Source: Phycisphaerales bacterium (lineage in GTDB: Bacteria; Planctomycetota; Phycisphaerae; UBA1845; Fen-1342). Taken from it: DNA of 59,207 nucleotides. This document shows, one piece after another, positions 40,915 to 46,058 of this stretch. Location: assembly GCA_003162245.1 (NCBI GenBank), contig PMMM01000252.1, forward strand, positions 1 to 59,207, in the 5' to 3' direction. Positions within the stretch are counted from its first letter, which is position 1; every line of letters starts with the position of its first letter. The notes beneath the pieces are model-generated. The model worked only from the letters and a program-made list of their open reading frames with translations. It had not been told where the DNA came from and did not search any database. The position numbers and the translations under genes are program-made.

Positions 40915-43776
40915 TCAAGGTTTCGCGGGCGCGGGGGCTTTTGCATCGGCGCTGGGGGCTTCTTCCTTTGCCTCTGTTTTCGTAGGTGTTGCCAGGATGC
41001 GGAACACGCGCGCCGGGACGTTGTACTTCGCGAAGGTCTTCTGTACTTGCTCCGCCGTCAGCGCCTCGTATGCCTCCCGGATGTTCTTCAGGTCCGCCAG
41101 CTTCAGCTTGTGCAGATCGAGATGCTGGAGCCGGTCGAACCAGAACTGCGGCTCCTTCAACTGCACGTCCAGGTGGTTGGCGATCTGCTTCTTCGCGTTC
41201 TCCAGTTCCTCCGCGCTCGGCCCCGAGTCGGCCAGCGCCTTGAAGATGCCCTCCACCTCCTTGACGACGTCGTCGGCCCGCTCCGGCGCGCACGGCGCCC
41301 CGGTAATCAGCAGGCCCGAGTCGTCGTACACCTCGGCCGGCACGTTGTTGGCGCCGATCCCGTACACCAGGCCCAGTTCCTCGCGCACGCGCTTGACCAA
41401 TCGGCTGTCGAGCGTCATCGCCGCCGCATTCATCGCCCGCACGTCCGCGACGTCGCGAGCCTGCACGCTAATGAACCCGGTCAAGATCATGGCCTGCGGC
41501 GTCACGGTCTCGACGCCCACGCGACGCTCCAGCGGGCCGGCCTGGCGGTGCAGCTTGCGTAGCGGATCGAGATGCGACGCCTGACGCTCGCGCTTCGGCA
41601 ACGACCCGACGTACTTCGCGATCAGCGGCAGGGCGTCGTCGAGCTTGATCTCGCCCACCACCGCGACCTCGATCGGGGCCTTGCCGCGCAGCCGCTCCAG
41701 CCAGGCCTGCGCCCGCTCCCGCGACTGGGCCTCGATCTTCTTCGGGTTCATTACGGTCCGCCGCGGATCGCCCCCGCCGATCGCGTCGAGCAGCGACTCC
41801 ACGGCCTTGAACCGGGGCTCCTTGTCGTTCGTCTCGTAGCTTTCAAGCGACTGCTCGCGCCACTTCTTGAACGCCGTCTCCTCGATCTTGCCGTCGGTCA
41901 GCAGGGCGTAGGCGAGCTGCAAGCCGATCTCCAGATCGATGGGCGAGCCCTCAACCGTCACGGCAAACGCGTCGCCCTGGGCCGAGGCACCGACGCTGAT
42001 GTTCTTGCCCGTCATGATGTCCTGAACGTCGGTGGACCTCAGGCGGCTGGTCGCAGGCTGCGAGAACGCGAGCGACGCGACGATGCTGACGCCGGCGTTC
42101 TCCGCGGTCTCTTCGATCTCTCCGCCGGCGAGCGTGATGCTGACGAGGACCGTGTCCTTCTTGTAGTCCATGAAGCGGTGGTGCACGCGCACGCCGTTAT
42201 CGAGCCAAGCGCTGGTGATCCCGAGGTCGGCGTCGGTTTCCGACTCGACGACCTTGCCGGGCGCGGGTTCCTTCTCGAGCAGCGTCGTCGGGCGCTCCTC
42301 CCACGTCAGCGGCTCGGTCTTGCGGGCCTGCGCCGCTTTCGCGGCCGCCAGCACGTCGTCCTCGCTCGGCAGCTTCACGTCTTCCTTCTGCGGCATGGTC
42401 AGGACGTACGCGAACGTGCCGGGCTTGAAGTTGGCGGCGAAGGCGGTGTTGACCTCGGCGAGCGTGATCGTCGGCAGCACTTTGTTCAGTAGGTCGAACT
42501 CCTGCTGCGCCGACATGATCGGCTCCCGCTCGTTCACCTTCCCGCCCATCTCCAGAATCATGCCCTCGGCTTCCCGCGTGGGCTCCGTGCGGACGGCGCG
42601 CTCGGCATCGGCGAGCAACTCCTTGCGGGCGAGCTCCAACTCCTGCGGCAGCAGCCCGTGCTCGCGTGCGCGGTTCACCTCGACGACCACCTCCGCGAGC
42701 ATCTTCTCCCAGTCCTTGGGCTCGCCGAGCGCCGAAGTGTCGATCAGGAGTCCCTGGTTGAACAGGCCGATGGTGGCCGTGGCGGCCTGCCGGTAGCTCG
42801 CCTCGCCCTTCTTCACGCGCTCGGCGAAGCGGCGGGCCATGATCCAGTTCCCGACGTGTTCGACCAGGTCCACCCGGGCCTGTTCCAGGGTCGTCGTCGG
42901 CGGACGGCCTGGGAGCAGGTTGTACACGTCGACGTCGCCGGTCGCGTAATCCGGGTCGGACAGGACGATCGCCCGCTCCGCCGTGAACGGCTTGAACTCC
43001 GGGCCCTTGTCCGGCTGGGCCTCGGTGGCCGGCTTGTACTGGCTGAACCACTTCTCGATCACCGGCAGGTAGTCGTCGAGCGCCCCGTCGCCGACGACCA
43101 TCAATGTGACGCGGTCCGGGCGGTACCAGGTGCGGTAGTAACTTTCGAACTCCGCGCGCGGCGCCTTCTCGATCACCTCGCGGGTGCCGATCGGAATACG
43201 CTTGCTGAGGCGCATTCCCGCGAACAAGCGCTCGAACAGCTTGTCCCGAATACGCTGCTGGGCGCTCATGCCAGCCCGTAGCTCCGCCGCGATTACGCCG
43301 CGCTCCTTGTCGAGCTCATCGGTGAGGAGCAATTGGCGGAAGGCGTAGTCGCTCAAGACCTTCAGCCCGCTCTCCACGGTCTCGACCTTGGGGTTGGGCA
43401 GGAACAGCATGTAGACCGTCTGGTCGAAGCTCGTGAACGCGTTCAGGTCCGGCCCGAACTCCATCCCGATGCTCTCGAAATACGGAATCAGCTCGCCGGG
43501 CTTGAAGTTTTCCGTGCCATTGAAGGCCATGTGCTCGAGAAAGTGCGCCAGCCCGCGCTGCTCCTCCGTCTCGTTCAGCGAGCCGGTCGAGACGTGGACC
43601 AGCAGCGCCATCTTCTGCGGCGGGTTTTCGTGATGGCGGAACATCCACTTCACGCCGTTGGCCAGTGTCCCGGTTTTGATGCGTTCGTCGGTGGGCAGCT
43701 TCTCGGCCGCGGGCGTTGGGACTGCGAGTGCGACGAGTGCCAGGAGCGGGATCGTTCTGAGGGCGAGCTTTTTCAT
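40915..43776 (-). CDS. M16-family zinc metallopeptidase (pitrilysin/insulinase type)
   Basis: A 953-residue secreted peptidase with signal peptide (LALRTIPLLALVALAVPTPAA). The zinc motif HxxEH is H78-F-L-E-H82 (AHFLEHMAFNGTENF), and the downstream third ligand lies in LDKERGVIAAELR. The two M16 halves of about 420 residues are present: an active N-terminal half and a C-terminal half with GLVYGIGANN and the LxxLR-type core but no zinc motif, as in the family. The active and inactive domains together enclose unfolded peptides. Ala/Pro/Lys-rich sequence ends the protein. I prefer ATG 43776 (AGGA about 9 bases upstream) to the start at 43803. It probably degrades peptides in the periplasm. Confidence 0.9.
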   Translation of the reverse strand: MKKLALRTIPLLALVALAVPTPAAEKLPTDERIKTGTLANGVKWMFRHHENPPQKMALLVHVSTGSLNETEEQRGLAHFLEHMAFNGTENFKPGELIPYFESIGMEFGPDLNAFTSFDQTVYMLFLPNPKVETVESGLKVLSDYAFRQLLLTDELDKERGVIAAELRAGMSAQQRIRDKLFERLFAGMRLSKRIPIGTREVIEKAPRAEFESYYRTWYRPDRVTLMVVGDGALDDYLPVIEKWFSQYKPATEAQPDKGPEFKPFTAERAIVLSDPDYATGDVDVYNLLPGRPPTTTLEQARVDLVEHVGNWIMARRFAERVKKGEASYRQAATATIGLFNQGLLIDTSALGEPKDWEKMLAEVVVEVNRAREHGLLPQELELARKELLADAERAVRTEPTREAEGMILEMGGKVNEREPIMSAQQEFDLLNKVLPTITLAEVNTAFAANFKPGTFAYVLTMPQKEDVKLPSEDDVLAAAKAAQARKTEPLTWEERPTTLLEKEPAPGKVVESETDADLGITSAWLDNGVRVHHRFMDYKKDTVLVSITLAGGEIEETAENAGVSIVASLAFSQPATSRLRSTDVQDIMTGKNISVGASAQGDAFAVTVEGSPIDLEIGLQLAYALLTDGKIEETAFKKWREQSLESYETNDKEPRFKAVESLLDAIGGGDPRRTVMNPKKIEAQSRERAQAWLERLRGKAPIEVAVVGEIKLDDALPLIAKYVGSLPKRERQASHLDPLRKLHRQAGPLERRVGVETVTPQAMILTGFISVQARDVADVRAMNAAAMTLDSRLVKRVREELGLVYGIGANNVPAEVYDDSGLLITGAPCAPERADDVVKEVEGIFKALADSGPSAEELENAKKQIANHLDVQLKEPQFWFDRLQHLDLHKLKLADLKNIREAYEALTAEQVQKTFAKYNVPARVFRILATPTKTEAKEEAPSADAKAPAPAKP

Positions 43777-44042
43777 GGTGTCATTCCTGTTTGGCTGTAG
43801 CACGGAGGACGGCCCTACGCCGGGAAAGCGTGGAAGTATATCGCGGCGGATGTCCGTCGAGTGGGTCCGCCGTCACAAATCGCGGTCGGGCGCCCGAGGC
43901 ACGCCAGCGACCCGGTTACGGTCGGCGTCGGCACACGCGCGTGGCGGCCGCCGCTAACGCACAGAGCAAGTTTGGTGGCACGAACGACGAGTCAGGCGCG
44001 GCCGGCCCGCAGGGCGCTTGCTCAGATTATCGGACTGCCAAT

Positions 44043-44165: not shown

Positions 44166-44214
44166 TTTTCTGGACCGGCACGCATACCGCGTCCTATGCT
44201 TAGTCGTGGTCCAG

Positions 44215-44306
44215 ACTTCACGGCCTCTTATAGGGAGCCAAGGGGCGCGACCGAAGTAAGGGACACACGGGTGTTGAGGGCCGACGACGGTCGGCCCTCT
44301 CTTTTT
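44215..44306 (+). ncRNA. Candidate small RNA 1, ending in a perfect intrinsic terminator
   Basis: A plus-strand transcript is implied by the terminator at 44276-44306, since no plus-strand gene lies upstream. The segment before it holds a small hairpin (ACAC-ACGG-GTGT, near 44263-44274) and the word AGGGACAC also found in candidate RNA 2. A 7-bp inverted repeat (CTGGACC 44170-44176, GGTCCAG 44208-44214) lies just upstream. The 5' end is a guess. Confidence 0.4.
44276..44306 (+). terminator. Intrinsic terminator 1
   Basis: GAGGGCCGAC and GTCGGCCCTC pair perfectly (10 bp) around GACG, followed by TCTTTTT. The T-tract is only on the plus-strand side. Confidence 0.85.
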
Positions 44307-44410
44307 GCGCCTCAAAGCTCTGCCACGTCTGGCGCCGCGCCGCCCCCAGTAACGCGCCTCAAAGTTCTGCGCCTCAGAGTTTCGCTGCCCCTGGCGCCGC
44401 GCAGCCCCCC
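44307..44410. repeat. Degenerate tandem repeat, two units
   Basis: GCGCCTCAAAG(C/T)TCTG occurs at 44307 and again at 44355, each followed by CTGGCGCCGCGC and a C-run (44329 and 44391). A third partial copy (GCGCCTCAGAGTTTC) lies inside the second unit. Confidence 0.5.
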
Positions 44411-44482
44411 GAAACGCCCTCCAGCCCCGTGTTTCCGCAATTAAATGCCGATGCGCCGATTTATGCGGTTTTTTTGTGGACC

Positions 44483-44512
44483 CGAGTGGAAATCGGCTCG
44501 ACATGGAGCCTA
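44483..44512 (+). promoter_or_regulatory. Promoter-like box pair before candidate RNA 2
   Basis: CGAGTGGAAATC (44483-44494), 13 bases, then GCCTA (44508-44512). The same pair at the same spacing stands before candidate RNA 3. Read as GGAAA-N16-CCTA it has the geometry of an ECF-sigma promoter and predicts a start near 44519-44521. Confidence 0.4.
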
Positions 44513-44518
44513 GAAATT

Positions 44519-44616
44519 AATACCTCCTCCTCCTAATGAGGGACACGCCAAGAGCCCTCAAGAAGCAAAACTCCTCCTCCTGTAGAGGGCCCGCTGATCA
44601 CGGGCCTTCTTTTTTG
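44519..44616 (+). ncRNA. Candidate small RNA 2 with two anti-Shine-Dalgarno CU tracts
   Basis: The predicted RNA of about 98 bases has CCTCCTCCTCCT (44523-44534) at its 5' end, a hairpin TGAGGG/CCCTCA (44537-44542 with 44555-44560), a second tract CTCCTCCTCCT (44571-44581), then the terminator hairpin (44586-44608) and T-tract. Both tracts lie outside the stems, as in small RNAs that use C-rich loops to pair with ribosome binding sites. Confidence 0.55.
44586..44616 (+). terminator. Intrinsic terminator 2
   Basis: An 8-bp stem (six G-C or A-T-free GGCCCG/CGGGCC pairs plus a G-T and an A-T pair) around a 7-base loop (CTGATCA) is followed by CTTTTTTTG-type sequence on the plus strand. Confidence 0.8.
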
Positions 44617-44677: not shown

Positions 44678-44707
44678 CGAGTGGAAATCCCGCGACACGC
44701 GGGCCTA
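44678..44707 (+). promoter_or_regulatory. Promoter-like box pair before candidate RNA 3
   Basis: Second copy of CGAGTGGAAATC (44678-44689), 13 bases, GCCTA (44703-44707). A start near 44714-44716 is predicted. The 13-base spacers of the two copies share only CGACA, so the boxes themselves appear to be conserved. Confidence 0.4.
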
Positions 44708-44713
44708 ACCTTT

Positions 44714-44909
44714 TGTAGGGAGACGGCTTGTCGCTTGCACCGCCGGTCGCAACCGGCACGGCCAGCCGTGAGAGCATGGCATGAAAAAGGCGAGGTCGCA
44801 CCCGGAGGTGAACCTCGCCCCTTTGGTACACCACCTGGCTCCCCAAGCGGTGGTGTTACGCGCGGCGGATGGGCGCTCACATCTGTGGGCTGCCCTCCGC
44901 CGTCTTTTC
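44714..44909 (+). ncRNA. Candidate structured RNA 3: five consecutive hairpins and a terminator
   Basis: The stems are all exact. P1 ACGGCT/AGCCGT (44723, 44764) encloses P2 GCCGGT-CGCA-ACCGGC (44742-44757). P3 is GGCGAGGT/ACCTCGCC (44789, 44812) with an inner CACC-CGGA-GGTG. P4 is ACACCACC/GGTGGTGT (44828, 44849). P5 is the terminator hairpin, about 16 pairs with two single-base bulges. It does not match the tmRNA, 6S, RNase P or SRP cores I looked for. Confidence 0.55.
44864..44909 (+). terminator. Intrinsic terminator 3
   Basis: GGCGGA-(T)-GGGC-GCTCAC, loop ATCT, GTGGGC-(T)-GCCC-TCCGCC: 16 pairs with two bulged bases, followed by GTCTTTTCT on the plus strand. Confidence 0.75.
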
Positions 44910-44919
44910 TGTATGCAGA

Positions 44920-45059: not shown

Positions 45060-46058
45060 TCAGGGTACGGGGATGTGATCGAGGACGTGACGCACGACGT
45101 CCTCGGCCGTTTTCTCTTCCGCCTCGGCCTCGTAGCTCACGATCACGCGGTGACGCAGCACGTCCGGGGCGATGTCCTTGACGTCCTGCGGCGTGACGTA
45201 GCCGCGCCCGGCCAGGAACGCCATCGCCCGGGCGCCGCGCGTGAGGTAGATGCTCGCCCGCGGCGAGGCGCCGTACTCGATCCAGTCGCCGATGTTCAGG
45301 CCGAAGTCGGCGGGGGTGCGCGTCGCGTGGACCAGCGTGACGACGTAGTCTTTGACCTTGTCGTCCATGTAAATCTCGTCGAGCACCTGGCGGGCGGCGA
45401 GCACCTGCTGCGGATCGAGCACCTCGGAGACCTGCGGCAGGTTCCGCTGGGGCGACATGCGGTCGAGAATCTGCCGCTCCTCCGCCCGCGACGGGTAATC
45501 GACCAGCAGCTTCAGCATGAAGCGGTCGACCTGGGCCTCCGGGAGCGGGTACGTGCCCTCGTGCTCGATCGGGTTCTGCGTCGCCAGCACCATGAACGGC
45601 TCGTCTAGACGGAACGTCTGGTCGCTGATTGTCACCTGCCGCTCTTGCATGGCTTCAAGCAGGGCGCTTTGCACCTTGGCCGGAGCGCGGTTGATTTCGT
45701 CGGCCAGCACGAGGTTCGCAAAGATCGGCCCCTTCTTGACGACGAAGGTGCCGTCTTTCGGCTGAAACACAAGCGTGCCGATGATGTCCGCCGGCAGCAG
45801 GTCGGGCGTGAACTGAATCCGCTGAAAGCGGGTGCGGATGGCGCGGGCCAGGCAGGCGACCGCGGTCGTCTTGGCCAGTCCGGGCACGCCCTCCAGCAGA
45901 ACATGCCCGTCGGCAAGCAACCCCACGAGCATTTTCTTCAGCAGGTTGTCTTGCCCGACGATGACGCGGCGGATCTCGGTCAGCAGGCGGTCGAAGTGCT
46001 CGTAATGGCTGCGAACAAGCTGTCCGATCTGCTGGACTTCGCTGTGCGTGACGGTCAT
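45060..46058 (-). CDS. MoxR-family AAA+ ATPase
   Basis: MoxR ATPases act as chaperone-like factors on vWA-domain proteins. The 332-residue length is normal. Walker A is EGVPGLAKTTAV (GxxGxxKT form), Walker B is VLADEINRAPAKVQSALLEAMQE, sensor 1 is VLATQNPIEHEGTYPLPEAQVDRF, and the C-terminal lid has YGASPRASIYLTRGARAMA. All are intact. The usual DUF58 and vWA partner genes are not adjacent; the only vWA-type protein in the window is the partial gene at its left end. It lies downstream of the 1.3-kb noncoding region and 163 bases after the SpoVR gene, same strand. Confidence 0.92.
   Translation of the reverse strand: MTVTHSEVQQIGQLVRSHYEHFDRLLTEIRRVIVGQDNLLKKMLVGLLADGHVLLEGVPGLAKTTAVACLARAIRTRFQRIQFTPDLLPADIIGTLVFQPKDGTFVVKKGPIFANLVLADEINRAPAKVQSALLEAMQERQVTISDQTFRLDEPFMVLATQNPIEHEGTYPLPEAQVDRFMLKLLVDYPSRAEERQILDRMSPQRNLPQVSEVLDPQQVLAARQVLDEIYMDDKVKDYVVTLVHATRTPADFGLNIGDWIEYGASPRASIYLTRGARAMAFLAGRGYVTPQDVKDIAPDVLRHRVIVSYEAEAEEKTAEDVVRHVLDHIPVP

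Follow-up and report, generated by a model that had tools for sequence, protein, structure and literature searches.

An intergenic region of an uncultured Phycisphaerae bacterium contains what looks like a real and strongly conserved small-RNA gene, RNA B, at positions 44513–44616 on the plus strand of the window (the whole stretch of DNA analyzed, 59,207 nt). RNA B is the middle one of three plus-strand RNA units, A, B, and C, which form a conserved cluster in which A and C are likewise new to description. Its two tracts of CCUCC repeats mirror the 16S rRNA end, which makes occlusion of ribosome-binding sites, and thereby silencing of mRNAs, its probable role. Our analysis points to trans-acting translational repression by Shine-Dalgarno (SD) pairing as the most likely function of this RNA.

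Organization of the RNA B unit

The unit resides in a 1.26-kb gap between an M16 peptidase gene (40915–43803) and a MoxR-type AAA ATPase gene (45060–46058). Because both flanking genes lie on the minus strand, a plus-strand RNA B cannot be part of their untranslated regions. A promoter-like block, GTGGAAATC-N14-CCTA (44486–44512, plus strand), precedes the unit; its spacing is fixed across family members and its identity with a same-genus genome is 95%. Upstream of the block is a UP-element-like T-run (44469–44475, plus strand), and most members are A/T-rich at a similar position. We infer a 5′ end at ~44516–44520, corresponding to an RNA of ~97–104 nt that would have a promoter of its own and stop at the intrinsic terminator.

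Folding of RNA B begun at the likely 5′ end left both tracts proposed by the first-pass annotation mostly unpaired: the 12-nt first tract (CCUCCUCCUCCU; CCTCCTCCTCCT in DNA; 44523–44534) with a probability of 0.88 and the second (CUCCUCCUCCU; CTCCTCCTCCT in DNA; 44571–44581) with a probability of 0.93. The hairpin noted between them (44537–44560) was recovered as UGAGGG/CCCUCA (TGAGGG/CCCTCA in DNA), comprising 6 bp if the outer U-A pair is counted. The terminator, AGAGGGCCCGCTGATCACGGGCCTTCT followed by T6 (44584–44616), forms a 10-bp stem (44584–44610) with covarying pairs in relatives. A strong terminator behind mostly unpaired tracts was predicted in each member that we folded. The first-pass annotation mentions neither the promoter-like block nor the second genomic copy, nor the sister RNA units on each side of RNA B.

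The first-pass annotation had favored a plus-strand RNA from the terminator direction and had seen no protein gene on that strand. Both points were supported: the promoter block faces the same way as the terminator, and no Pfam protein was matched at RNA B on either strand. The opposite reading, a minus-strand RNA repeating GGAGG or else a short protein-coding gene, could draw on the long open frames present on either strand, a usual feature of GC-rich DNA, and on a weak minus-strand terminator-like match inside RNA B. However, the promoter and the T-run terminator faced the plus strand in the members inspected, and no reading frame is kept across units that vary in length and in some cases measure just ~50 nt; together with the Pfam result, this makes the opposite reading very improbable.

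Conservation and copies of RNA B

The tract by itself is merely mildly unusual, with CCTCCTCC occurring 8 times in the window versus 2.45 expected, and the evidence for a gene comes from the conservation of the whole unit, which rules out a chance origin of RNA B. A paralogue with 83% identity is present elsewhere in the 4.76-Mb genome. The two-tract form, in which both tracts, the hairpin, and the terminator are retained together, was found in seven genomes of the family (this one and six others), so that RNA B passed the test of joint conservation by which the first-pass annotation proposed to refute it. The covariance search suggested there was also productive: relatives were detected by blastn and an RNA model in 14 of the 27 family genomes and 15 of the 114 genomes of the order, although the matches of the RNA model R1 rest mostly on sequence because automatic alignment had shifted the register and so produced a spurious consensus helix (tract 1 plus a GAGG arm). 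After the hairpin was re-registered by hand, positions 1–5 of the inter-tract stem formed standard pairs in 8 of 8 sequences, with A-U/G-C exchanges in relatives, and one terminator pair was A-U in four sequences and G-C in four.

The CUCCUCCU tracts are nearly invariant across members and constitute their most invariant part, and nearly every member retains the CCU period, whereas the promoter-tract interval and the stems vary. In the same-genus genome, RNA B showed 97% identity, compared to 51% and 60% for two nearby spacers; the corresponding values were 98% for RNA A, 93% for RNA C, 90% for the short B–C spacer, and 83% for the stretch 3′ of RNA C. Additional family genomes and one genome of another family carry one-tract relatives, in which a single tract, often in tandem arrangement, lies just 5′ of the terminator.

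These one-tract copies are scattered beside unrelated genes, and GC-rich DNA often contains CCTCCTCC by itself, as would be expected if the locus were CCT repeats that happen to lie near a terminator, or a scattered mobile element, without any RNA function. This explanation is already contradicted by the conservation results, since conservation extends jointly over the promoter, the tracts, the hairpin, and the terminator while the two neighboring spacers diverge, and the stems carry compensating base changes. A pattern search of 397 genomes of the class gave matches in 11 genomes of the family and in a single genome outside it, and the reversed-pattern control produced merely stray single matches. 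We therefore regard a functionless repeat as hardly credible.

A GTDB-wide pattern search returned 79 stretches, and among the GTDB representatives the combination of promoter, tract, and terminator occurred in Phycisphaerae only. Outside Phycisphaerae, the matching tracts were not followed by a terminator and are apparently chance matches. The hosts included the Phycisphaerae bacteria PL23b_bin.19, DeMMO2_9, CSMAG_2420, and Zod_Metabat.846, as well as a Phycisphaerales member from Alinen lake sediment and a groundwater Planctomycetota member.

In a second family, G030:C244:133262-133914 holds three tandem relatives adjoining a GH31 gene, with the variant CCUCCUACUCCC replacing the regular tract. 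Another family, distant but within the class, has a CCUCCUCCUCCUU tract with a strong terminator behind it on the minus strand between prephenate dehydrogenase and MFS genes (G168:C1:554659-554716), and this locus is either a distant member or a chance match. The counterpart of this genome's second (C14) copy at G001:C192:3087-3191 is missing the hairpin and one tract, apparently through a deletion between CCUCC repeats.

Proposed Shine-Dalgarno pairing and functionally similar small RNAs

The 16S rRNA tail of the host genome, CACCUCCUU (also given as GGATCACCTCCTT), was confirmed as 16S and ends in CCUCC as the first-pass annotation had assumed, and the exact anti-SD letters ACCUCCU occur within the tract in several members. 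With genes picked by length and codon-position GC, so that start sites are approximate, GGAG preceded 35% of start codons versus 5.5% of internal ATGs, and GGAGG preceded 12% versus 0.6%. The 16S tail and this SD usage make pairing of the tracts with SD sequences plausible, lending substance to the earlier proposal of ribosome-site blocking; the multi-target repression proposed with it is still conjecture. The accompanying idea of ribosome-directed mimicry was misleading: an RNA bearing CCUCC is a copy of the ribosome's own anti-SD and would thus pair with mRNA rather than with 16S rRNA.

We consider it fairly probable that RNA B is an sRNA of ~100 nt whose redundant anti-SD tracts block 30S binding and repress a set of mRNAs. 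The two single-stranded CCUCCUCCU tracts would serve as redundant seeds copying the 16S anti-SD and would pair with GGAG or GGAGG of mRNAs, thereby preventing 30S binding and repressing translation of several targets. The hairpin and the terminator would keep the tracts open and protect RNA B, which would be one of a family of sibling sRNAs, and the presence of two tracts could provide either redundant action or the binding of two mRNAs at once.

Target prediction with the tract, recommended by the first-pass annotation, did not single out such mRNAs. Extended complements (GGAGGAGG-N2-10-ATG) were not enriched at starts genome-wide (16 versus 13 in the reversed control), and GGAGGAG preceded none of 117 sampled starts. 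At −12 kcal/mol, the tract was predicted to form duplexes with 13.7% of starts compared to 5.2% of internal ATGs; this excess is the SD signal itself, and of 20 shuffled tracts, the best one was predicted to pair at starts nearly to the same extent as the genuine sequence. No specific conserved target emerged from the genome-wide complements at starts or from the duplex energies. Few starts are preceded by such an extended complement; one of them, recognized by eye as a clear gene start, is an rplX-like (ribosomal protein L24) start with GGAGGAGG ~10 nt before the ATG (G000:C112:3069-3089, minus strand). Within the window, a predicted gene has a GGAGG start region (AGGAGGCATCTCGATG).

The lack of enrichment of extended complements at starts also bears on a different role, in which the two C-rich strands would titrate an RNA-binding protein (Rho, S1, cold-shock, or Hfq-like) and mRNA pairing would be secondary. 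The tracts are longer than the 5–7 nt needed for SD pairing and of low complexity, and their conserved CCU period would suit a protein ligand. However, the exact ACCUCCU in several members and the use of GGAG/GGAGG by the genome argue against a protein sponge, no protein partner was identified, and we consider this role unlikely.

Translational repression by SD pairing also has precedents. NfeR1 of the αr14 family in α-proteobacteria blocks the ntrB translation start (PMC10746234, PMC3927594), and its redundant CU-rich anti-SD seeds have been proven (PMC10746234). The αr14/NfeR1 RNAs (SmelA075-type) resemble RNA B in having redundant CCUCC-type anti-SD motifs, ultraconserved motifs set in a divergent scaffold, and related multi-hairpin variants (PMC10746234, PMC3927594). 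LhrC1-5 of Listeria have several redundant, proven CU-rich SD-binding sites per sRNA (PMC4132741), and NmsRA/NmsRB of Neisseria have two proven UC-rich anti-SD regions (PMC5362039). Like RNA B, LhrC1-5 are multicopy siblings with redundant CU-rich anti-SD sites; like RNA B relatives, NmsRA/NmsRB are tandem siblings with one anti-SD region in a single strand between stem-loops (PMC5362039).

NmsRA/NmsRB differ from RNA B in sequence, structure (three stem-loops), and taxon. In αr14, which belongs to another phylum and has another promoter, CCUCCUCCC occupies the loops of three hairpins, whereas the RNA B tracts are linear and flank one hairpin or precede the terminator. The CCUCCUCCC string, from which the name CcsR derives, is absent from the window copy; folding did not reveal the three-loop αr14 architecture, and similarity to αr14/NfeR1 in sequence or structure stayed below the Rfam gathering score. 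LhrC RNAs are LisRK-regulated RNAs of Listeria whose UCCC motifs are located in loops, including that of the terminator, and in a single-stranded segment; the RNA B family has Phycisphaerae hosts, CUCCUCC tracts, no Rfam match, and no UCCC in the window copy. Overall, Rfam 15 gave no match in the window at gathering scores and chance-level matches only in the region at a permissive threshold. With the architecture and sequence tests failing, naming RNA B αr14 or LhrC would be wrong. RNA B shares with anti-SD sRNAs an independent unit with a conserved promoter block and intrinsic terminator, and a conserved, mostly unpaired motif that is complementary to the SD and contains the letters of the 16S tail. 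Judged by sequence comparison, the RNA B family is new and its predicted mechanism belongs to a known class, with a functional likeness to αr14/NfeR1, LhrC, and NmsR that involves no sequence relationship.

The A-B-C cluster and its shared promoter block

TGGA[AC]-N17-CCTA with a fixed TGGA-to-CCTA spacing occurs in nearly all RNA B family members, one exception being a model match (G018) with GCATA for CCTA. The family consensus is TGGA[AC]W-tC-N13-GCCTAnnA, with a nearly invariant C at +7, a G 5′ of CCTA, an A 3′ of CCTA, and an A/T-rich block upstream. TGGA-N18-CCTA was found three times in the 59-kb window versus 0.38 expected, always on the plus strand and within 540 bp, and these three matches precede RNA A (CTGGACC..CCTA, 44170–44196), RNA B, and RNA C (GTGGAAATC..CCTA, 44681–44707). 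The stricter TGGAMWTY-N14-CCTA gave five matches in the whole genome, three of which belong to RNA B, its second copy, and RNA C. A simple scan gave no sigma-70 match for the block, which resembles an extracytoplasmic-function type promoter (GGAACTT-like −35) and may be of that type. Since all three units carry the same block, RNA B is probably co-expressed with RNA A and RNA C. The block also occurs at G000:C233:17252-17277, ~100 bp upstream of a start MCGIAGVLNY.. that resembles class-II glutamine amidotransferase/asparagine synthetase, a possible protein-gene member of the same regulon.

RNA A (44197–44308, plus strand) has a GGGAGCC core in a stem-loop and a terminator at 44276–44305. RNA C (44708–44910, plus strand) has the hairpin CACCACC-UGGCUCCCC-..GGUGGUG and a GC-rich terminal hairpin; across genomes, the invariant hairpin reads CACCACC-[U/C]GGCUCCC-..GGUGGUG and is accompanied by two more stems. 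The RNA C structure was supported by covariation, with 8 pairs changed on both sides, a result reached in 0 of 500 shuffles. Strong RNA C matches were confined to 8 of the 114 genomes of the order, all in the family: the seven two-tract genomes and G007, where the match begins 177 bases from a contig end. RNA A was found in the same eight (of 27 family genomes), but G011, G022, and G007 have it on a separate contig. The order A, B, C on one strand is kept in five genomes, and B plus C in two more, while the protein neighbors vary (M16, MoxR, CysS, Rce1/PKD, ABC-2). As raw counts across related genomes, these figures include any contribution of common ancestry. Neither RNA A nor RNA C matched an Rfam family. 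At G018:C77 ~1346-1660, G011:C141, and G014:C22, a C-like GGCUCCC hairpin comes immediately after an A-like RNA, giving a fused or shortened A+C. A comparable stress-linked cluster of homologous regulatory sRNAs, CcsR1-4 of Rhodobacter, arises by RNase E cleavage of a single co-transcript (PMC7866481), whereas A, B, and C each have their own promoter block and terminator.

The invariant GGGAGCC of RNA A is the exact complement of the invariant GGCUCCC loop of RNA C, and the base pair next to it differs among genomes (A-U, G-U, or G-C). This complementarity and the co-occurrence of the linked units could mean that RNA B acts mainly as a decoy, together with A and C, by capturing small RNAs or leaders that bear GGAGG. 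A GGAGG in the RNA C loop was considered as a partner of the RNA B tracts; it is limited to this genome and G001, leaving no conserved GGAGG partner in A or C, and B-like copies also exist in genomes without RNA A and RNA C. Such a decoy role is thus rather improbable. Repression of SD-bearing mRNAs by RNA B can instead be placed within a tentative three-RNA module of Planctomycetota, for which we see a modest chance: with a shared promoter type, B would repress these mRNAs while A would sponge or tune C, forming an RNA-only circuit kept despite changing protein neighbors.

In open papers, our text searches turned up no sRNA described for either Phycisphaerae or Planctomycetes. If our reading is true, SD-occluding sRNAs would have arisen separately in another phylum, as a multicopy family with exact anti-SD tracts that are kept while the surrounding DNA diverges. 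The A-B-C cluster and the shared promoter block would then offer an entry to RNA regulation and to a sigma-factor regulon in these bacteria.
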